Positions 8,260 to 21,285 of a stretch of 23,969 nt of DNA are shown here, piece by piece. The translations under genes and the position numbers were made by a program. The DNA comes from a virus. How positions within the stretch are numbered: position 1 is the first letter of the stretch; every line of letters begins with the position of its first letter. The notes beneath the pieces were generated by a model. It was not told where the DNA came from, did no database searches, and saw nothing but the letters and a program-made list of their open reading frames with translations. Location of the stretch: the IMG/VR virus record IMGVR_UViG_3300009149_000279, positions 1 through 23,969 of that record; one strand, given 5' to 3'.

Positions 8260-9000
8260 TTATAATAGGAAAACAACAAACGAATATGTCGCCGAGCAAC
8301 TCGATATACTATTTTCAGCCGTTACTTTCAACTCAAATAAACCAGTCCCTTCCGAAACCCACTCGTAATAAAAAGTTGATGTCGTCACCGTAATCAAATT
8401 ACCATCACTATCAGGTACCGTCCAAGTATATAAAGTAGGATTCCAACTAGGTCCAGAAAAAGGATCCGTATCAAAAGCCCATAAATAAACACTATCACCC
8501 TGTAAAACAGCATCAATAGGATTAAAATCAACATTATTATCATATACTACCAAATTCAAATCATCACAAACAGATTCAGTCGGTCCAACAGGACTTTCAT
8601 AATCACAATCAAAATAAACAAAAGTATCATTATCAGTAACATCAAAATAAACTTGAGGAGGACATATTTCATCATCTTCAATCTTAATCTCATTATCATA
8701 TAATAAACTAGCCGAACCAAGATTCAAATTATACTGATATTCAGTCTCATAAATATTCAAAAAATAATTTCCAGGATCTAAGTCAAATCTACTTTGAGTC
8801 GCCGAAAAAGTCACTCCATTAACCCAATCAAATTTATTATATGATAAAGGCGCCGGTGATATATCATCACCCGTAAATAAAATCTTTTCCTTACTATTTT
8901 GATTAATCATTTCAAAGATATAATAAGGATTAACAAACTTTGACACCTTATTTAACCTAAAAACTACTGATGTTGTACCAACTTCCTTTATACTTTTCAT
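8260..9000 (-). CDS. Virion protein with C-terminal Ig/PKD-like domain
   Basis: Two parts are visible. The N-terminal half (about 1-110) has the pattern FEMINQNSKEKILFTGDDIS, then YNKFDWV, then RFDLDPGNYFLNIYETEYQ, which I know from small beta-sandwich proteins in Bacteroidota phage head-tail modules. The C-terminal part (about 145-246) is Cys-poor and beta-rich, with VYLWAFDTDPFSGPSWNPTL, YTWTVPDSDGN and GLFELKVTAENSIS, typical of PKD/Ig-like domains used for surface attachment. It probably decorates the virion. It follows the strong hairpin at 9044-9082 and precedes the portal by 18 bases. Confidence 0.6.
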   Translation of the reverse strand: MKSIKEVGTTSVVFRLNKVSKFVNPYYIFEMINQNSKEKILFTGDDISPAPLSYNKFDWVNGVTFSATQSRFDLDPGNYFLNIYETEYQYNLNLGSASLLYDNEIKIEDDEICPPQVYFDVTDNDTFVYFDCDYESPVGPTESVCDDLNLVVYDNNVDFNPIDAVLQGDSVYLWAFDTDPFSGPSWNPTLYTWTVPDSDGNLITVTTSTFYYEWVSEGTGLFELKVTAENSISSCSATYSFVVFLL

Positions 9001-11362: not shown

Positions 11363-11379
11363 GATATTATATCATTATT
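11363..11379 (-). promoter_or_regulatory. Class A element, core-only copy
   Basis: The minus strand has AATAATGATATAATAT, identical to the AT half of the 12634-12668 copy, but the GTGGGAAAGAG half is absent (CAAATACTCA instead, within the end of the 142-aa gene). It lies upstream of the scaffold and capsid genes, with the AT core about 69 bases before the scaffold ATG. Confidence 0.4.
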
Positions 11380-11803
11380 TGAGTATTTGAACTATAACAC
11401 CATTTATTATTTCAAGGCCAACCTTTTCAATCATTTCAAAAGATGTCCAAACCCAATAAGTTCCATCAGCCATAGCCTTTGATAATAAACTATCCTCAAA
11501 AGCCTTTAAATTATTATCCAAAGGTTTTGGTTCTGTGAATAAACTTGATAATCCACTTTCTGTTTTATCAACCAACATATATTCAAAAAATAATTCACCT
11601 AAACCACCACCTGCTCCAGGAGGTCTATTAACTAAAGAAAGTTTTTCAATAGCCTTTTCAGCATTCAAAGTCAATTTCCCTTTATTATCAATTTTCAAAT
11701 CATCACCTAACATATCCTCAGATAAAATCACAACTCTAGTTCCATCCTTTTTTATACCAACCAAAGGACCATACTCAAAATCTATTTCGTTTTTTCTATT
11801 CAT
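11375..11803 (-). CDS. Appendage-family protein with shared N-terminal module, 142 aa
   Basis: Its first about 45 residues (RKNEIDFEYGPLVGIKKDGT, then LSEDMLGDDLKID) align with the N-terminal modules of the 290-aa and 191-aa proteins and, more weakly, the 223-aa protein. The common pattern is R-x-N-x-D-x-E-Y-G-x-L-x-G, then a variable strand, then S-x-M-x-G-D-x-L. The rest (about 55-142) is unrelated to the others and not recognised; it has a glycine-rich hinge (RPPGAGGGLG, about 60-69). I infer a structural protein docking at the same site as its paralogues. It ends at the core class A copy, and is the last of four related genes. Confidence 0.6.
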   Translation of the reverse strand: MNRKNEIDFEYGPLVGIKKDGTRVVILSEDMLGDDLKIDNKGKLTLNAEKAIEKLSLVNRPPGAGGGLGELFFEYMLVDKTESGLSSLFTEPKPLDNNLKAFEDSLLSKAMADGTYWVWTSFEMIEKVGLEIINGVIVQILK

Positions 11804-11812
11804 TTTTTTTAT

Positions 11813-11917
11813 TTATTTTTTGAAAACTAACTCAAGTGCTTCTTTTGATGTGGCACCTTCTTTAACGAGTTGTTTTACTTGTTTTAATTTTACTTGTAAT
11901 TCAAAAATCTTTTTCAT
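11813..11917 (-). CDS. Small helical protein, 34 aa
   Basis: The ATG at 11917 opens a 34-codon frame starting MKKIFELQVKLKQVKQLVKE and ending EALELVFKK, filling the gap between the 223-aa and 142-aa genes with an A-rich leader typical of this genome. It is predicted to be one long amphipathic helix, or two helices joined at GATS, with a basic face. Neither neighbour overlaps it. Its size and helix suggest a small assembly cofactor, but no function is recognised. Confidence 0.45.
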   Translation of the reverse strand: MKKIFELQVKLKQVKQLVKEGATSKEALELVFKK

Positions 11918-11934
11918 ATCTTTATTTTATTTTT

Positions 11935-12606
11935 TTAAAGCCCTGCTGGAACATATTGTGCTTCTTCAAGTGAATAAGTGAAACCAGTTATCACTTCACC
12001 AGTCAAATCCTCCTCAGTATCAACTTGGATAAAAATTCTTCCTTCAGTTAATTCGTAACTATCAGCGAAACTAATTGCGTGATAATAAGAAAATGAAGGA
12101 GTTAAACCAAAATCAATGCTTCTTTCATAACTATACTTTATTTGAAAGAAAGATACATCCAACCCGAATTGAGTGCTTTGATAACCACTTTCACTATCAA
12201 CTCCTTCACTTGAAAAGGCAGTTGTTGGATATGATAATCCACCGGCTTGTTCTACTGGTGGTGTCATTAAACCACTTACCGCAATGTTTTCTATTTCAAA
12301 TGATGGTTGAAAAGGATTATTGATAATTGCTGTTTTATAAAAACCATCTAAGGCTCCTCCAATTTGTGAGCCTCCTTGTTCATCAATCACCAAAGATGCT
12401 GTGAAATAAGAAGCCGAACCAGCAAAGATTGCGTTCAAAGCCTCATCTACATCAACAAACTTGAAGTTTATTGTTTCACCACACTTGAAACTATCACAAG
12501 AAATTGAACCATTTCCAATTTGAACTTCATTTCCATTTTTATCAACCGATACTAACGGACCATCCTCGGCTCTAAGGATGTTTTTTCTTTCATTAATAAA
12601 TCCCAT
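11935..12606 (-). CDS. Appendage-family protein, divergent N-terminal module, 223 aa
   Basis: The start (MGFINERKNILRAEDGPLVS) is a divergent version of the module in the following three related proteins: R-x-N-I, E-x-G-x-L and then a strand-turn-strand up to about residue 45. The rest is beta-rich, with two Cys at about 34 and 38 and a run of aromatic-rich strands (FGLDVSFFQIKYSYERSI, then SYYHAISFADSYELTEG). The C-terminal residues EDLTGEVITGFTYSLEEAQY suggest a closed beta domain, perhaps receptor binding. It is the first gene after the class A copy at 12634-12668. No family is recognised beyond the N-terminus. Codon use looks a little less AT-rich than in neighbouring genes (many CTT, TTC and ACT codons), which could indicate exchange. 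Confidence 0.55.
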   Translation of the reverse strand: MGFINERKNILRAEDGPLVSVDKNGNEVQIGNGSISCDSFKCGETINFKFVDVDEALNAIFAGSASYFTASLVIDEQGGSQIGGALDGFYKTAIINNPFQPSFEIENIAVSGLMTPPVEQAGGLSYPTTAFSSEGVDSESGYQSTQFGLDVSFFQIKYSYERSIDFGLTPSFSYYHAISFADSYELTEGRIFIQVDTEEDLTGEVITGFTYSLEEAQYVPAGL

Positions 12607-12633
12607 TTTTTTTTTATTTTTTTTATTTATATA

Positions 12634-12668
12634 TTATATTATATCATTATTACTCTTTCCCACTTTTT
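12634..12668 (-). promoter_or_regulatory. Class A repeated element, copy 2
   Basis: The minus strand reads AAAAAGTGGGAAAGAGTAAT and then AATGATATAATATAA. It is 34 of 35 identical to the copy at 21301-21335. The first AA belongs to the TAA of the 290-aa gene. The AT tract ends 27 bases before the ATG of the 223-aa gene, which has a very A-rich leader. The likely role is a phage-specific promoter. Confidence 0.65.
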
Positions 12669-13539
12669 AATTATGTAATGGGATTTTATATAAAGTTCCA
12701 TTTACTCTAACCTCTAAATATAAAACTGGACTCACTGATGCTGTACCAGCCGTATTCTTTTGAAAACCAAGATTAGCCGAACCTATAGCAATTTCACCAT
12801 CACTCAACGGCTCAGCATAACCACCTAAAGCAATCGTATTATTCACACTCGTAATAGTTGGTCCCGATCCTACACCAATAAAAACATTATTATCACCATT
12901 AATATTATATTGATTCGCTATCGCTCCTATAACAACATTTCCATCACCATTTTCTAAAATCGCACCAGCTTCTTTACCAACTAAAACATTATTAGATCCA
13001 CCGTTCATATCTCTACCAGCCTGTTCCCCCATCATAACATTTCCATCACCCGTATTCAATAAACTACCAGCCTCATTACCAAAAATCGTATTATTTACAT
13101 TTTCCTCAACTCTCCAACCAGCTCTATAACCAACCAAAGTATTATTCGAACCAGTACTCAACAAATTACCAGCATCACGACCAATTAAAGTATTCCCCGA
13201 TCCAACAACACCATCCTCACCAGTACCAAAACCAACAAATGTGTTTAATAAACCACTTGGATCAGTCCTCTCATTCAATTTAAATATTCCACTAGCAACA
13301 TCTACTTTTCCAAAAGCTCCAAAATTTCCACCACCAGCGTTTATCTGTAATTGATTCACATCACCTCCAGGATTTGATCCACCACCACTAAAAGTAGCTG
13401 ATAAAACCCCATTTTGAAAAATAAGATTATCACCAATCATATCACTATTAATATATGTAAAGAATTGTCCATTTAAATAACCTCTTAAACTTCCATACTC
13501 CAAATCAAAAATATTTTGTCTTCCTCTATAAGGCACCAT
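12667..13539 (-). CDS. Beta-helical fibre protein with 17-residue repeats, 290 aa
   Basis: Residues 1-48 are the shared module (RQNIFDLEYGSLRGYLNGQF, then YINSDMIGDNL). Residues about 99-242 contain nine copies of a 17-residue repeat of the type N-T-L-V-G-x-x-A-G, beginning at 99, 116, 133, 150, 167, 184, 201, 218 and 234. This is a left-handed beta-roll like the YadA head, so the protein is expected to be a trimeric fibre shaft or tip. The C-terminus (LEVRVNGTLYKIPLHN) is a module often seen at the end of Bacteroidota phage fibre proteins. It may bind host surface glycans. It is encoded between the 191-aa and 223-aa relatives. Confidence 0.7.
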   Translation of the reverse strand: MVPYRGRQNIFDLEYGSLRGYLNGQFFTYINSDMIGDNLIFQNGVLSATFSGGGSNPGGDVNQLQINAGGGNFGAFGKVDVASGIFKLNERTDPSGLLNTFVGFGTGEDGVVGSGNTLIGRDAGNLLSTGSNNTLVGYRAGWRVEENVNNTIFGNEAGSLLNTGDGNVMMGEQAGRDMNGGSNNVLVGKEAGAILENGDGNVVIGAIANQYNINGDNNVFIGVGSGPTITSVNNTIALGGYAEPLSDGEIAIGSANLGFQKNTAGTASVSPVLYLEVRVNGTLYKIPLHN

Positions 13540-13557
13540 ATCATTTTTTTTATTTTT

Positions 13558-14133
13558 TTATAACTCAGAAACAATAAAATTATAGTTTTCACATATAATA
13601 TCAGCCGTTCCAGTTTCGTTTTTAGTCCAAATTTCAACATAATCATTTTCACTCATCTCAACTAAACACTGAATCGCCGCTCCTTGTAACTTACCATTAC
13701 TTCTTGTAATTAATTCCTGCTCACTACACGGGATTATAATCGATCCATTTTTATAAAAAGATAAATGAATCTCATTATTATTTCCACTCGATAAACTAAC
13801 TATTCCTTCACACTTACATATTCTATTTCCATCCGTGTTTAATATCCTATTATCACTATGAACAAATCCATCTCTTGAAAATCCTTCAGTCGTCTCAACA
13901 TTTAATTTATACCAAGTCCCAGAAGCAGTAATCCCAGTCGTAAAAGAATCACCAAACATAAAACAATTAATAAAAGCTCCACCAGTTAATTTCTTTTCAT
14001 TATCATTCCATAATAAACCATCACCAACCATATTTGAATTAATATAAGTATATAAATTATCTTTAATATAACCTCTTAACTCACCATATTCTAAATCGAA
14101 TATATTACTTCTACTTCTAAAAGGAGCGCTCAT
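13558..14133 (-). CDS. Fibre/appendage protein with jelly-roll-like C-terminus, 191 aa
   Basis: The first about 50 residues (SRSNIFDLEYGELRGYIKDN, then YINSNMVGDGLL) are nearly the same as in the 290-aa protein. The rest (about 65-191) is a beta sandwich of the C1q/TNF-like type found in phage appendages: EIHLSFYKNGSII, then AAIQCLVEMSENDYVEIWTK and ADIICENYNFIVSEL. Such trimers bind ligands or decorate virions. The ATG overlaps the TGA of the protease gene as ATGA, so it is coupled to it. The location between protease and scaffold genes leaves open whether it attaches to the head or the tail. Confidence 0.65.
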   Translation of the reverse strand: MSAPFRSRSNIFDLEYGELRGYIKDNLYTYINSNMVGDGLLWNDNEKKLTGGAFINCFMFGDSFTTGITASGTWYKLNVETTEGFSRDGFVHSDNRILNTDGNRICKCEGIVSLSSGNNNEIHLSFYKNGSIIIPCSEQELITRSNGKLQGAAIQCLVEMSENDYVEIWTKNETGTADIICENYNFIVSEL

Positions 14134-15050
14134 CTTAATATATCTTTTAATTTTTCCAAATCATTATTCAATAAAGCCTCTTTCATCTTATCAAATTTTT
14201 CATTTATCATATCTTCTCTATCAATTTGTTCTAATTTTCTCTGAGCCCACTCAACACCTTCATCACCACCCCAAGCAAGCCACATCAATCTACCACAACC
14301 ATCACCTAAATCCTTATTACTATTTTGTCTATGTCTCTCAAAAGCCGCCATCCTTGATATAGTTTCTCGACTTATAGCCTCACCATTAGCAAGTTGATTC
14401 GCTCTAGCCTTTCCAACAGGAGTACCACAATCACCCCAACCATTTTCCTCAGCCCATCTTAAAGCAATCTTAGCATTCTCACTAGCCGCCTTAGGATAAT
14501 CAGTATATGACTCAAAATCCTGCTTCGACATTTCAACCTTTTCCAACTCACTTATTAACTCAATAGAAAATCCTTGTAAAGAATCACTTTTTATATAATC
14601 TTTCCAAAACTTATCATCATCAATATAAACAGATCCAGCCCAACTTCCATCAGGGACTTCAAAACCAAAATCTACTTTAACCTTATCACTAACAATAAAA
14701 TTCTCAACAACAAAAGCATTAACTCTATTATCTCCGTGTTGAAAATTTATATTTCTACCATACTGATTCTTATTAAACTTCTTAACTATCTTTTCAATAG
14801 TCGATTTTTCAAACATAGTATAATATTCACCCATACTAGGACTCCATCTATATATCAATTTATCAGGAACTATAAAAACGCCATAAAGCATTTTCTTATC
14901 TTTATTAGCAACAAAAGTCATTTTCTTTTGTTTATTCAATTTAATCCAATTTAACTCCATAGCCGGCTCATCAACCAAAGATATAAAATCAACACCAGTC
15001 ATATCATCATCATCATTAACAACAACTTTATATATCGGTAACTTTTCCAT
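14130..15050 (-). CDS. XkdF-like prohead protease with extra C-terminal domain
   Basis: The 306-aa protein begins like XkdF-type (S78_2) proteases: DFISLVDEPAMELNWIK (about 21-37), then H105 in NFQHGD, E116 in VVENFIV, a GSWAGSVYIDDDKFW stretch (about 135-149) and S162 in QGFSIE. H105 and S162 are the likely catalytic pair. The enzyme would cleave scaffold and capsid subunits during maturation. Residues about 185-276 form a second domain (YPKAASENAKIALRWAEENG, then CGTPVGKARANQLANGE, ISRMAAFERH and LMWLAWGGDEGVEWAQ) that I recognise as a recurring fused module in Bacteroidota phage proteases; its function is unknown. The final helix is a short coiled coil. The TMP gene lies just upstream. Confidence 0.75.
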   Translation of the reverse strand: MEKLPIYKVVVNDDDDMTGVDFISLVDEPAMELNWIKLNKQKKMTFVANKDKKMLYGVFIVPDKLIYRWSPSMGEYYTMFEKSTIEKIVKKFNKNQYGRNINFQHGDNRVNAFVVENFIVSDKVKVDFGFEVPDGSWAGSVYIDDDKFWKDYIKSDSLQGFSIELISELEKVEMSKQDFESYTDYPKAASENAKIALRWAEENGWGDCGTPVGKARANQLANGEAISRETISRMAAFERHRQNSNKDLGDGCGRLMWLAWGGDEGVEWAQRKLEQIDREDMINEKFDKMKEALLNNDLEKLKDILR

Positions 15051-15082: not shown

Positions 15083-16387
15083 TTAACCAAATTCAGCACT
15101 TGTCTCAACAACAGCCACATTATTCTGAGTACCAGTAATATCAGTTTCAACAACATAAACCTGTTGAGGCTGATTAACAACCGGCGCTTGAACATTAGCA
15201 CCAGCTATATTCGAAGCTCCACCAGCCGCTCCACTATTTATACCAAATTCAGGAGGTACTATATCACTAACTCCACTTTCACCAGCACTAGAAGATCCAC
15301 TTAAAGACGATGAAACGCTCGAAGCAGCACCTCCACCACCAGCACCTCCGCTTTCAGGGAATTTCTGAGAAGCAATTATACCAATCTGAGCCGCTCCTAA
15401 ACCAGCAATCACAGCCGCCATAACAGCTCCAGCTATCGGTCCTAATTGAAAAGCATTAACAACACCCTGAGCCGTCGCTATAATGGCCTGTACTATCTGT
15501 AAAGCCTTTTGTTGTTCAAAAGCCTTTTTCTGTTCCTTTCTTTCCTTTTTTCTATACTCTCTATCAATATTTTCCTTAGCAGTAGCCAGCTCCTCCTCAG
15601 TCAAAACACCTCTTTCATACTGAGCGTCCAAAGCCGCAATCCTTTCATCTCTTTCTCGATTAATCTGTTCTATTCTTTGATTACTTTGTTCCTGTAAAAT
15701 CTGTCCAACACCACCTATAATAGAATTAATCGCTCCTAAAGCCGCTCCTATCGCTCCCAATAAACTATCTTCATCATCAGGATTATCTATCGCATTTTTA
15801 ACACCATCTATAGCCTCACCAAAACCACTAGTAATATTCATCGCAGCCGAAGCAAGCGCGCCAGATATACCATCAGTCCCAACAAAAATCTCAGATATAG
15901 TCGATCCTAAATTTTTAAAACCTGTAGATATTTTTTCTATATCACTAAGTGATTCATCGGTCAGTTGTCTTTGTAATCCGAGTAATTTAATTTGTAAATC
16001 TATCCTCTCCTTTGAACCTTCTTTAAATAAATTCTTTTCCAATAAAAGATTTTGAATCCTTCTTATCTCATTTTCCTTTAGTTTCCTATTTAACTCATCC
16101 TCATCTTTTATTACACCATCAGTATATTCCTGATAAATTCTTAATTTTTCAGCAGCAAATTCAGTTTCAACAGAATTAACATAAATATCATTTAATCGTT
16201 TCTCCTCCTCTCTCGCTTTTCTTATAACCTCTAATCTTTCCTCCTCTAACTTCTTAGCCGCTTCTATTTTTTTCTTATCAGCTTCAACCCTAGCCTTTTC
16301 CTCATCAGCAATTCTTTTCTTTTCCTCAGCAGAAGCCTGTTTCGATATAGTATTTAATTCTCTTTGAATCTGTCTTTCTTGATTCAA
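15083..16387 (-). CDS. Tape-measure protein, C-terminal part after an in-frame stop
   Basis: This is the continuation of the tape measure in the same frame. The open frame actually extends back to 16471, right after the TAA at 16474-16472, with 28 codons before the first near-start codon, a TTG at 16387. No ATG start lies close to the stop; the first in-frame Met is about 180 residues further on. The sequence runs as coiled coil (AEEKKRIADEEKARVEADKK), then a hydrophobic section (GAIGAALGAINSIIGGVGQI), another coiled coil, a second hydrophobic stretch (VVNAFQLGPIAGAVMAAVIA), and a Gly/Ser-rich tail. The C-terminus (QVYVVETDITGTQNN) is a common tape-measure end in Bacteroidota phages. Without the stop the whole protein would be 767 residues. 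Confidence 0.7.
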   Translation of the reverse strand: MNQERQIQRELNTISKQASAEEKKRIADEEKARVEADKKKIEAAKKLEEERLEVIRKAREEEKRLNDIYVNSVETEFAAEKLRIYQEYTDGVIKDEDELNRKLKENEIRRIQNLLLEKNLFKEGSKERIDLQIKLLGLQRQLTDESLSDIEKISTGFKNLGSTISEIFVGTDGISGALASAAMNITSGFGEAIDGVKNAIDNPDDEDSLLGAIGAALGAINSIIGGVGQILQEQSNQRIEQINRERDERIAALDAQYERGVLTEEELATAKENIDREYRKKERKEQKKAFEQQKALQIVQAIIATAQGVVNAFQLGPIAGAVMAAVIAGLGAAQIGIIASQKFPESGGAGGGGAASSVSSSLSGSSSAGESGVSDIVPPEFGINSGAAGGASNIAGANVQAPVVNQPQQVYVVETDITGTQNNVAVVETSAEFG

Positions 16388-16471
16388 CCTTTCAGTTCTT
16401 TTTCTAGCAACATCAGCAATTAAACGAGCTTCCTCATCTAAATTTTCTTTATTCGATCTAGCAAAAGTATT

Positions 16472-17386
16472 TTATAGTGTCTGAGCCTCCGCCCTTAATT
16501 CTAAAACCTTAGTTTCCTCAACTAATAAAGTATTCTGTAAATCTCTCGCTTCTCTTAAAAATCCCGCCCTTTCACTAGCCGAAAATTGTTCTTCTTGTCT
16601 AGACTTCAATCTTAACTCAGCAATATCACCTTCCAACTTGGCTCTCTTAACCAATAAATCTCTTTCTAATTTATCAGCTTTAGCTCTTTTATCAGCAACT
16701 TCCGCGGCAGCATCACCTTCCTTTTTTAACTCATCAACAAATTCACCCGTTTTCTTTATAGCATTTTCAATCTTATCAGTAGCATTTTCAACACCAGTCG
16801 TGATTTTCAAAGCCGCATCGGCAGCCGTCTTACCAGCCTCTTTAAATTTCCCACTCAAAGCAAGCTCAATAGATTTTCCTAAAGCCGGAATCAACTCCAA
16901 TATACCTTCAAATCTATTAACAATATTCTCCTTTAACGCATTACTAAAATCCTCTAAGGCTTTTTTTGGATTCCGAAAAGCCTTAATAATAATCTCTCCT
17001 AAATCAGCAAGTAAATCAATAAAATTATCAACAATCGAACCAGCAACCGTCATAATCTTATTCCACTTATTCTGTCCTTCCTCACTACTCGTAAAAGCAG
17101 CAGTCACCGCACCAATAGCGATTATCAAAAGACCTATACCAGTCGCAGCAATCGCCGCTCCCATACCTCTAAAACCTAAAGTAGCAGCATTTATAACTTT
17201 AGTCATCCCACTAAAAGCAGCGCTTATCTGTCCTATCGGTCCAGGAATCTTTGATAAATTATCATTAACAGAACCAAAGGATTTATCAGCAGTTTTCCCA
17301 GTATCAGCAATCTTTTCATTAAGATTTCCTATACTTTTCTCCGCATCAGATGTATCTAAAATTATTTTTTTTCTTATGTCAGCCAT
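16472..17386 (-). CDS. Tape-measure protein, N-terminal part, ends at an in-frame TAA
   Basis: Residues 1-304 of a tail tape-measure protein. The N-terminus (ADIRKKIILDTSDAEKSIGN) and the following helices are typical, with hydrophobic stretches at about 70-100 (GFRGMGAAIAATGIGLLIIA, then IGAVTAAF) and later helices rich in Lys, Glu and Ala. It would sit inside the tail tube and set tail length. The frame ends at TAA (context CTA TAA AAT) in the middle of a coiled coil (LRAEAQTL), and the same frame continues downstream for 462 further codons without interruption. A one-base change from CAA, GAA, AAA, TTA or TCA would explain the stop. The gene may be broken, read through, or affected by an assembly error. 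Confidence 0.7.
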   Translation of the reverse strand: MADIRKKIILDTSDAEKSIGNLNEKIADTGKTADKSFGSVNDNLSKIPGPIGQISAAFSGMTKVINAATLGFRGMGAAIAATGIGLLIIAIGAVTAAFTSSEEGQNKWNKIMTVAGSIVDNFIDLLADLGEIIIKAFRNPKKALEDFSNALKENIVNRFEGILELIPALGKSIELALSGKFKEAGKTAADAALKITTGVENATDKIENAIKKTGEFVDELKKEGDAAAEVADKRAKADKLERDLLVKRAKLEGDIAELRLKSRQEEQFSASERAGFLREARDLQNTLLVEETKVLELRAEAQTL

Positions 17387-17405: not shown

Positions 17406-18218
17406 TTATATCCATTTTAATTTACAAATCCAATTAATATTAGTACCAGCTTCACCAGTAACTCTTACTCTAACACTCGTACCACTAAAATCTATCGTAG
17501 ATGTAGCAGTCGAAAAATCAGTCTTTTCAATTAAATCTATAGTACCAACCTGAAACAAAGTACCACCATCATTTCTTATAGCAGATGTAATCTTACCATA
17601 ATATCCATTTGATCCGTCAGTCTGTATTCCAGTGATATATGCTTCAAAAAATTTCATATTATTTGAACCAACCCAACTATAAGTAGCAATATCAGTAATC
17701 GTAGCATCACTTGTCGAAACACTATAACCTTGAAATCTTAATCCTTCTATACCAACATAACCTAAACCAGATGATATATCAACATAGTTTTCACCAACAA
17801 CTAAAGTTTCTGTTTCACTTATTCTTATACTATTACTAGCATCAGCACTTAATAAAATAAAACTATTATTCATTAATATACTACTAGATCCATCAGCAGA
17901 TGTAATTTCATCACCAACACTCATAATTATATCACTACCACCAGTAGTATTACCAACAACTAAAACATCAGATAAAGATGGCGTTACACCACTCACCGTT
18001 CCACCAAAAGAAAACTCATTTATATTCGATCCAATCCTTATAAACGCCTTATTATTCAACTCATCAACACCTATCTCACTTAAAGCAAGATCACTTTTAG
18101 TCCAACTACCACTCGCTCCAAAAGGAAGTGTAAAATCCTCCTGACTAGGAATCGAAAAAGTCGAACCATCAGTCACCGTATGATGACTTATTCTACTAAA
18201 CTGACTTATTATACTCAT
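17406..18218 (-). CDS. Tail fibre-like protein, 270 aa
   Basis: The protein has a motif typical of tail fibre or tropism-determinant N-termini, SWTKSDLALSEIGVDELNNK (about 38-57), followed by FIRIGSNINEFSF. The middle is a Ser-rich beta region (SVGDEITSADGSSSILMNNS), and the C-terminus (about 178-270) has YSWVGSNNMKFFEAYITGIQ, GYYGKITSAIRNDGG and NINWICKLKWI, an all-beta domain that I have seen at the ends of phage fibre proteins. The likely job is adsorption or baseplate decoration. It lies between the 1011-aa tail protein and the tape measure and is not part of the adaptor family seen in the four genes after the protease. Confidence 0.6.
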   Translation of the reverse strand: MSIISQFSRISHHTVTDGSTFSIPSQEDFTLPFGASGSWTKSDLALSEIGVDELNNKAFIRIGSNINEFSFGGTVSGVTPSLSDVLVVGNTTGGSDIIMSVGDEITSADGSSSILMNNSFILLSADASNSIRISETETLVVGENYVDISSGLGYVGIEGLRFQGYSVSTSDATITDIATYSWVGSNNMKFFEAYITGIQTDGSNGYYGKITSAIRNDGGTLFQVGTIDLIEKTDFSTATSTIDFSGTSVRVRVTGEAGTNINWICKLKWI

Positions 18219-18249: not shown

Positions 18250-18411
18250 TTATATCACAAAGTCATAACCACCAGATAAAAGATTCTCTATCGTATGACT
18301 ACCTAAAGGTCTAACCTCATCTCGACCACCAGATATAAAATTTTCAACTTTATTTTCAGGAAAAGCACTTAAAACCTCATCTCGACCAGCACCAACAAAA
18401 TTACTTACTTT
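18250..18411 (-). repeat. Three ~20-residue repeats at the end of the 1011-aa tail protein
   Basis: Residues 959-978, 979-997 and 998-1011 carry K-V-S-N-F-V-G-A-G-R-D-E-V, K-V-E-N-F-I-S-G-G-R-D-E-V and T-I-E-N-L-L-S-G-G-Y-D-F-V. The last copy forms the exact C-terminus. They follow the beta-helix and may be an oligomerisation cap. The span runs from 18250 to 18411 in ascending order. Confidence 0.7.
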
Positions 18412-21285
18412 TATCATAGGCTGTCCTATCATCACTCTATCACTTTCTCTCAAAGTATTATTAACACCACCTATAACAACAGAATTTTTAATATTCAAAT
18501 CTATCTTATTACCAGCACCACCTATAACAACAGAATTAGTCGCAGACTTTCCAATAAAATTATTCTCACCACCCAATATAACAGCATTATTACTACTCAC
18601 TATATAATGATTATTACCACCAACAACAGCCGATAAAAAAGAATTAGCACCAATTCTATTATCATCTCCATATATGAATCCATTTGTAAAATATCCCATT
18701 TCATTTGAATCCCCAAAAATAAAAACTCCTCCTATTTCTCTACTAGTATTTCCCTTTCCAACCAATATACCCTTATCAGTATATGGTCTATTCGGTCTTG
18801 ATATAATTACACCATCCATCGGCTTTATAAAAGTATCAACAACATCTCCTTTAATAACCTTTAAATCTATCTCTTTTATTTTCAATAATTCAACTTTATA
18901 AGATCCACTTCTAACAGGATTATACTCTATCTTATTCAATCTAAAATAACCACCAGTCGAGGATGACAACCTATCAACAAATATAATATCATTAAAACTT
19001 AAACTATTCAAATCTAACGCATCTAAATAAAAATTAGCCGTAATCAATCTACTATCTTTATCAACAATTTCCTCGATCATTTTTCGATGATAAACATTAT
19101 ATAAATTATTATTCGTAATTTGATTACCAGGATAATATAAAACTTTTGTAATCCCAAAATTAATATCACTAGAAGCCTGAGTAGGATGATTAAAATGGCC
19201 CGCATAAGGATATGTATTCAAAGTATTACCATCTAACTTCCAAAATCCATTATCAGGCACCGATATACTCTGCGTTCCTCTCTGTAAAATTCTTATACCA
19301 CCAATTATATTATTTGTAGTATCACCATTATCTTTATCTAAATATCTAGGAATTAACATCCTAAGATCAAATGAAGCGTAACTACAAACCGAAGGGCTGA
19401 ATATAATTTCAGTTTTTTCCTCACCTTTAATAAAATCATTATCAATTTCTTTAATATATTGACCCCATATCTCATTATGACTATTAAAATAAACATCATT
19501 ATAATAATCCTTTGAATCCTTTTTATATGTATATAGAATATCCTTACTTCTCAACTCACCCAATATCTGTTGTCTTACTTCTTTCGATATATCTAACTTT
19601 CTACTCCAATCTTTAACAACACCTTTCGCATAATAATCATCTCTCGTCTCAATTATCAAATTCTTAGGATTATTCTTATCAATATCAACATATAAATTAA
19701 ACATCTTTAATATAGATGAAACAAAGTCACTCTTTTTAATCTTAGGAGTCAAAACCCTCGACATATCTATATCTTGTCCTGAAAATAAAACAGATTCTAT
19801 ATCAGTCGTAATATAAGATCCTTCCATAACTTCAAAAACATTCTCACCATTTAATATATTTTCGACTCTAACATAATTATTCATAAAACTTTCAACAAAA
19901 AAAGTATCAATTTCAACCCAAACTTTTTCACCAGGATATAAAGGCGCTAGTCCAGTAGCAGATCCATCCAAAACTATCGACTGAATCTGTTTTTTATATC
20001 TCACATAATCAACCGTTTCATCAATAATATCATCATTAGTAAAAAATGGGACTATATTATAAGTATTACCATTACCAAAAGGAACAGAACCAGCCTCATT
20101 TGTCAAAAAAACATAACTACCCTGTATCACAGGCTCTCCTATATTAACCACCTCAGCATTAGCAATAGGAATTTCAAAACCATTAGGAGCAGGATTTCCA
20201 GTAATAGGATTAAACTCTCTTAGTATTCTAAAAATAATATCACCACCTAATTTTCTACCAACCTGCGGAAAAGGATATACTGATGGAATATCCTCCTCAC
20301 TTTTTCCTTGAAATAGTTTATTTATTTTAATATCTAAATTAACACCAAACTTTATATAAAAAGTCTGGGATGGCTGCGTATATTCAAAATTAGTAACATC
20401 CCAATAACCAGATGGATCACCAAAAGGAGATAAATCATTTGAAAATCTCATAGTAGGATCATAATCAGGAGTACCAGTATCACTCATTAAAAACGCATAA
20501 TCAAATGGCTGAGAAGCAACATTTGATAATGGGTTACATACATAAGAACCAGTCAAACCAATATAAATTCTATTATTGAAAATCCACTCAGGCGTCGGTC
20601 CTGTTTCAGGAGCACCATATGGAATTATCAAATTTTCAAAAATCTCACTATCAAAAAAATCTGATTCATATGTAAATCCAGATTCATTAAATAATTTTTC
20701 CATAATATACTTAACATATATACCCGGTCTCATCTTTTCAATTTCTAAACCATCATTATTAACTAGCTGTAAATTATCTAAATTATTATTATAATCAATC
20801 AAAGGATAATAATATCCATAAGTCCAATATTTATCCCAACTATCAGATATATTAACATAATTATATGTATGATTCAATTCACTAAAATCCAAATCACTTA
20901 TATATCCACCACTTAAAGTTTCAAAAAAAGTATCATTATCTCCTAAAATTACACACTCATAATTAAAGTGTATATTATCACCACTCTTAATATTTCTTAA
21001 TTGAAAAAATCCTTCGAAAACTTGTATAGTATCATTTAAAACATAACACCTAACTTTTTTATTAGCATTAAAATCAGATAAATTATGAACATCAAAAATA
21101 AAATTAAATAATTGACTATTATTAACCGTATGAGGAATATTCAAAGTCTTAGTAAAAGATGAATTCCTTTTCGATATATCTTTAACATCAGCAATATTAT
21201 ATGTAATAGGAAAACTTATATTTTCTCCTAAATCAACCTTTCTCCAATCTCCATCAAAGTAAATAAATAATTCTGTCTTATTCAT
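18250..21285 (-). CDS. Large tail/baseplate protein with beta-helical C-terminus
   Basis: A 1011-aa protein. The N-terminus (YNIADVKDISKRNSSFTKTL, about 31-50) and the following 100 residues (FEGFFQLRNIKSGDN and similar) are characteristic of large tail-hub or baseplate proteins in Bacteroidota phages. The central part is long and beta-rich. Residues 839-958 form a beta-helix with repeats such as NSVVIGG-x10 in a 17-residue period, like the 290-aa protein. Residues 959-1011 carry three repeats of V-x-N-F-x-x-G-G-R-D-E-V at about 20-residue spacing. So a fibre-type domain is fused to the hub, perhaps making it a host-contact tip. It is the first gene after the class A element at 21301-21335. 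Assignment to the hub role is by analogy. Confidence 0.65.
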   Translation of the reverse strand: MNKTELFIYFDGDWRKVDLGENISFPITYNIADVKDISKRNSSFTKTLNIPHTVNNSQLFNFIFDVHNLSDFNANKKVRCYVLNDTIQVFEGFFQLRNIKSGDNIHFNYECVILGDNDTFFETLSGGYISDLDFSELNHTYNYVNISDSWDKYWTYGYYYPLIDYNNNLDNLQLVNNDGLEIEKMRPGIYVKYIMEKLFNESGFTYESDFFDSEIFENLIIPYGAPETGPTPEWIFNNRIYIGLTGSYVCNPLSNVASQPFDYAFLMSDTGTPDYDPTMRFSNDLSPFGDPSGYWDVTNFEYTQPSQTFYIKFGVNLDIKINKLFQGKSEEDIPSVYPFPQVGRKLGGDIIFRILREFNPITGNPAPNGFEIPIANAEVVNIGEPVIQGSYVFLTNEAGSVPFGNGNTYNIVPFFTNDDIIDETVDYVRYKKQIQSIVLDGSATGLAPLYPGEKVWVEIDTFFVESFMNNYVRVENILNGENVFEVMEGSYITTDIESVLFSGQDIDMSRVLTPKIKKSDFVSSILKMFNLYVDIDKNNPKNLIIETRDDYYAKGVVKDWSRKLDISKEVRQQILGELRSKDILYTYKKDSKDYYNDVYFNSHNEIWGQYIKEIDNDFIKGEEKTEIIFSPSVCSYASFDLRMLIPRYLDKDNGDTTNNIIGGIRILQRGTQSISVPDNGFWKLDGNTLNTYPYAGHFNHPTQASSDINFGITKVLYYPGNQITNNNLYNVYHRKMIEEIVDKDSRLITANFYLDALDLNSLSFNDIIFVDRLSSSTGGYFRLNKIEYNPVRSGSYKVELLKIKEIDLKVIKGDVVDTFIKPMDGVIISRPNRPYTDKGILVGKGNTSREIGGVFIFGDSNEMGYFTNGFIYGDDNRIGANSFLSAVVGGNNHYIVSSNNAVILGGENNFIGKSATNSVVIGGAGNKIDLNIKNSVVIGGVNNTLRESDRVMIGQPMIKVSNFVGAGRDEVLSAFPENKVENFISGGRDEVRPLGSHTIENLLSGGYDFVI
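18465..18537 (-). repeat. 22-bp direct repeat, 51-bp period, in the beta-helix region
   Basis: Identical 22-bp copies occur at 18465-18486 and 18516-18537 (both contain CCTATAACAACAGAATT). The 51-base spacing equals 17 codons, so it encodes two consecutive NSVVIGG beta-helix turns. The DNA identity points to recent duplication of one turn. Confidence 0.75.

Follow-up and report, generated by a model that had tools for sequence, protein, structure and literature searches.

Four neighbouring genes in the late cluster of an uncultured phage encode proteins whose N-termini, as judged by profile comparison, are homologous and whose C-terminal parts are mutually unrelated. In related viruses, heads of the same kinds are found on other anchored proteins and on the tail hub. 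On balance we take the four genes to encode accessory, interchangeable virion adhesins, probably located at the tail tip.

Results

The window, i.e. the whole stretch of DNA analysed, is a 23,969-base virus record with a late gene cluster on the minus strand. This cluster starts with a gp10-like protein, T635, T1011, T270, the tape measure (two ORFs) and an XkdF-type protease at 14130-15050 (PF14550, E 7e-12), continues with the four genes under study, a scaffold-like protein, the capsid protein, a 170-aa protein (in our reading the tail tube) and a 246-aa protein, and ends with the portal, a 190-aa protein and a holin-like protein. Gene order and relatives are the basis for naming the capsid, scaffold and holin. 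The four genes, which sit between the protease on one side and the scaffold-like and capsid genes on the other, and two tail genes are:

F191, 13558-14133, minus strand: anchor residues 1-28 (about 14050-14133), neck residues 29-50 (about 13984-14049), predicted TNF/C1q-like head residues 51-191 (about 13561-13983)
F290, 12667-13539, minus strand: anchor residues 1-27 (about 13459-13539), neck residues 28-49 (about 13393-13458), repetitive GxxNxxxG-type head residues 50-290
F223, 11935-12606, minus strand: anchor residues 1-28 (about 12523-12606), without recognisable neck
F142, 11375-11803, minus strand: anchor residues 1-24 (about 11732-11803), neck residues 25-46 (about 11666-11731), short C-terminal part
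T1011, 18250-21285, minus strand: probable tail-tip hub with gp27/Tal-like fold, model of low overall confidence
T270, 17406-18218, minus strand: probable further tail adhesin adjoining the hub, distinct conserved start (residues 1-68), without the anchor

Since the stop codon of the protease gene contains the start of F191 and the gaps that follow are only 18, 60, 131 and 80 bases in order, the four genes are probably expressed together with the virion genes. The starts of F191 and F290 form a 105-nt repeat with 72% identity; scans for repeats and promoters revealed nothing further.

Other genes of the cluster deserve mention. The tape measure (15083-17386) is split into two ORFs in the window, through either a frameshift or an error in the sequence; contig L004/L014, which is almost the same (99.93% over 14,480 bases, with a single gap), has one ORF of 767 aa. 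At its C-terminus (residues ~181-277) the protease is ~54-61% identical to segments of haloarchaeal tailed-virus proteins, either prohead proteases or head proteins, a likeness far above that of the protease domain itself. The 246-aa protein (8260-9000) has ~115 additional C-terminal residues compared with its relatives of ~130 aa, and this extension looks like another added display domain.

The N-termini were compared pairwise by shuffle z-scores over the first 55 residues. F191 and F290 gave z 24.6, F142 gave 9.9 with F191 and 10.6 with F290, and F223 gave 7.4 with F142; direct comparison of F223 with F191 (z 1.8) or F290 (z 0.9) was not significant. Membership of F223 is linked through relatives, because its residues 1-28 match proteins of two related loci (z 16.3 to L005:14915-15478 and z 11.9 to L006:15146-15673). 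In leave-one-out profiles each member ranked straight after the profile's own sequences (F223 with E 8.5e-6), the best non-member having E 0.04-0.09. An N-terminal profile built from relatives only, without any window sequence, placed all four window proteins in the top nine of 4,396 ORFs, with E 4.4e-5 for F223 and 6e-10 or better for the other three, against 0.09 for the best non-member. Members were thus recovered ahead of every non-member, as expected for the common N-terminal module on four neighbouring genes that the preliminary description had proposed. Its further statement that the C-terminal parts are unrelated also stood, with z from -1.1 to 2.8.

The protein encoded at 626-1132 was considered as a fifth member and not accepted (z 3.3 to F142, negative profile score). 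Together with L010:14351-14959 and L009:7293-7763 (minus strand) it forms a small family with an M-I-I-R-N-D-C-like start, a coil and a Trp-containing C-terminus; the window protein weakly resembles an amidase PHROG (E 0.0045).

The shared N-terminus had been described as a single pattern of 45-50 residues. Its first half, the anchor (about residues 1-28, R-x-N-x-x-D-x-x-[YH]-G-x-L), is indeed present in all four proteins; the second half, with the pattern I-N-S-x-M-x-G-D-x-L, is a separate neck (about residues 29-50, M-x-G-D-x-L) and is absent from F223. Alignments indicate that the two parts are separable, because no neck is recognisable behind the anchors of F223 and L006:15146, and L010:1796-2707 has the neck without the anchor. 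The latter scores z 6.6 with F191 and 7.0 with F290 over 50 residues and below 1 over the first 28; a neck profile from which it was left out recovers it with E 1.5e-3, and a different start precedes its neck. AlphaFold2 gave F191 no secondary structure in residues 1-18 and a low-confidence hairpin in residues 19-31.

A tree of 28 columns, with moderate support (0.70-0.91), separates about three anchor groups: F191, F290 and the L010 pair; F223, L005 and L006:15146; F142 and L006:15821. Two anchor subtypes recur together in one other genome, L006. The module was present in 6 of 39 clade records, corresponding to about four distinct viruses; many of the records are fragments. The anchor's own residues had no match in Pfam or PHROGs at E ≤ 1, and no relative was found in PDB sequences, deposited phages or the bacterial genome contigs searched. 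Scans of viral contigs with two anchor subtypes returned the already known carriers and L074 only. In L074, which is close to L006, the portal, holin and anchored genes are all broken ORFs, perhaps owing to low sequence quality.

F191 had been described as jelly-roll-like at its C-terminus, and this is confirmed by structure prediction: in an AlphaFold2 monomer model the head reached a pLDDT of ~95 (residues 61-190). Residues 51-191 are confidently predicted to form a TNF/C1q-type jelly roll, a fold that is normally trimeric. The best structural match was BxpB (Z 16.4, 131 residues, rmsd 2.0), and BclA (Z ~15) and a domain of the short tail fibre of cyanophage A-1(L) (Z 14.1) also matched; Foldseek matches included the receptor-binding protein of phage 1358, the spike knob of phi812 and the lectin BC2L-C. 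F191 has the fold in common with the heads of the A-1(L) fibre, the phage 1358 protein and BclA/BxpB, but sequence identity is only ~10-18% and the N-termini are different. Among the fetched loci, 89 ORFs (with copies of one contig included) encode an F191-type head, which in most cases is C-terminal and follows a wide range of N-termini; elemovirus gp55 carries it with 46% identity. One protein with this head, L133:5955-6707, begins with a signal-peptide-like sequence and may be cellular.

The head of F290 consists of GxxNxxxG-type repeats with the terminus YLEVRVNGTLYKIPLHN. It matched a PHROG virion structural family (E 1.5e-19) and a tail spike family (E 5.8e-9), but no Pfam family, and profile and sequence searches of the PDB gave no clear match. 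It is probably a beta-roll (YadA-like or other); the beta-helix of the preliminary description is plausible on account of the repeats, but found no confirmation in the Pfam and PDB profile searches. No fold could be assigned to the head of F223 or to the short C-terminal part of F142 from their Pfam and PHROG comparisons.

Relatives show natural exchanges of heads. The F191 head is carried by one anchor group in the window and by another in L005 and L006. The T1011 homologue of L006 has the F290 head as its C-terminus (blastp E 2e-15), matching to the last residues (z 14 over the last 45). A second repeat head is present on the anchored protein L010:4235-5017 and on L010:1796-2707, which has the neck only, and it also forms the C-terminus of the T1011 homologues in L042 and L045 (z 13-22, last 60 residues). 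Finally, a coil with a Trp-containing tail is found on the anchored protein L006:15821-16441 and, after a different start, on L010:14351-14959 (z 20). These natural swaps, in which C-termini change among relatives while the module is kept, are what was predicted for interchangeable displays on a common N-terminal module.

The model of T1011 is poor overall (pLDDT 51), but its better-modelled parts gave Z 10-11 to hubs from a large number of phages and from contractile injection systems, and such hubs filled the top ranks. The predicted hub fold lies in residues 1-810, and T1011 is probably a tail-tip hub with a gp27/Tal-like fold, so that the proteins sharing heads with the cassettes would be tail-tip proteins. 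T270 parallels the cassettes in design: it has a conserved start, different from the anchor, with 63% identity to L005:5337-5927 over residues 1-68, and a C-terminus that is swapped in L005 and can not be aligned. L011 (L011:19749-20393) and L008 have a coil protein, encoded at another place in the genome, whose N-terminus repeats the second half of this start (residues 42-68).

The ends of T1011 and of the hub L005:1937-5314 contain three repeats of a motif like N-F-x-S-G-G-R-D-E-V. After each of these two GRDEV-type hubs comes a T270-type gene, and both the motif repeats and such a gene are missing from the other hubs examined. This triple tail is unlikely to be the docking site of the anchor, because the hub of L006 is without it and L006 has two anchored proteins.

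Discussion

The best explanation of these data is that the N-terminal anchor peptide of ~25-28 residues plugs into a site on the particle, that a short neck follows in most of the four proteins, and that an exchangeable C-terminal head would touch the cell surface. Recombination would carry heads from one anchored protein or anchor subtype to another, and into or out of direct fusion with the hub. One particle could therefore present several of them, and relatives would replace, lose or fuse heads. The four proteins would be components of the virion, possibly trimers, and would bind receptors, the last point being suggested by the head fold only. Heads of the cassette type occur elsewhere too, and the docking site is a matter of what we infer from their sharing with the hub, which favours the tail tip.

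An unlikely alternative is that the proteins are head fibres whose anchors plug into capsid pockets and whose heads decorate the capsid. There is precedent in the Bacteroides phage crAss001, whose head fibres gp21 and gp29 and tail-hub fibre gp22 attach by their N-terminal residues 1-38, 1-58 and 1-26, respectively (PMC10172136). Attachment by such very short N-terminal segments is what we suppose for the window proteins as well; the difference is that the window anchor is common to several proteins of one phage. In sequence the window anchors resemble neither gp21 (z ≤ 1.3) nor gp29 (z ≤ 0.8), with profile E ≥ 0.06 in a seven-sequence set. The preliminary description had placed the attachment site on the head on the sole basis of gene position, and in the window and in L010 anchored genes do lie between protease and scaffold. 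This position is not conserved. In L005 and L006 the anchored genes are placed after the holin, in L010 the neck-bearing gene lies between tape measure and protease, and the protease-scaffold interval is empty in L005, L006, L007, L008, L011, L042, L045 and L054. Since placement differs among relatives, gene position is no guide to the attachment site and was rejected as evidence for the head. In addition, fusions to the tail-tip hub exist for two of the head families. A site on the head is therefore not supported.

Still less probable is attachment to the neck, the collar, the tail tube or another fibre such as T270, giving a branched complex. Branched tailspike complexes of several receptor-binding proteins are known from the Ackermannviridae (CBA120, S117; TSP1-4), with conserved N-terminal assembly parts and variable C-terminal heads (PMC11414711). 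In L005 a T270 homologue of 196 aa, with its own conserved start, adjoins the hub. However, L006 has no T270 homologue adjoining its hub, yet has two anchored proteins.

In T4, capsid-targeting sequences bring unrelated proteins into the prohead. That the window N-terminus is such a peptide, cut by the protease, would fit a short conserved start on unrelated proteins encoded near a prohead protease and a scaffold gene, but it is very improbable in view of head folds common to phage fibres and the tail hub and of genes that lie away from the head cluster in relatives.

We thus keep to interchangeable adhesins at the tail tip as the preferred reading. One attachment site for all of them, as originally proposed, is a different matter: because there are about three anchor subtypes, two of which recur together in L006, distinct subsites or mixed oligomers are as likely. 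Tentatively, and with more doubt than belief, one may go further and picture a sequence-unique anchor system whose heads are traded with the hub and whose several subtypes form a mixed multi-head adhesin complex on one particle.

A conserved N-terminal part with a variable head is the standard design of phage receptor-binding proteins, as in the Ackermannviridae (PMC11414711). With TSP1-4 the window has in common that there are several receptor-binding proteins per phage, with conserved N-termini and variable heads. The N-terminal parts of the Ackermannviridae, in contrast, are large, folded and of different kinds (TSP4-N is given as 335 residues in PMC8825819), whereas in the window one anchor of <30 residues is found on four small proteins. 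Mosaicism, with fragments common to otherwise unrelated proteins through ongoing shuffling, is pronounced in receptor-binding proteins as a class (PMC10684548); what sets the window clade apart is that the tail hub and separate anchored proteins exchange heads with one another. The principle of a conserved anchor with swappable heads is already established, and the surprise is therefore moderate; new are the anchor family itself and the trade of heads between cassettes and hub, visible here in one small uncultured clade.

Since relatives swap heads among anchored proteins and with the tail-tip protein, the four genes probably represent a small, interchangeable adhesin kit on the tail. In uncultured phages, searches with the anchor could reveal adhesins that lack annotation. 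The clade illustrates natural exchange of heads by separate fibres with the tail hub, and the window is a compact case, from nature, of a small phage with seemingly several host-contact heads on an anchor of less than 30 residues.
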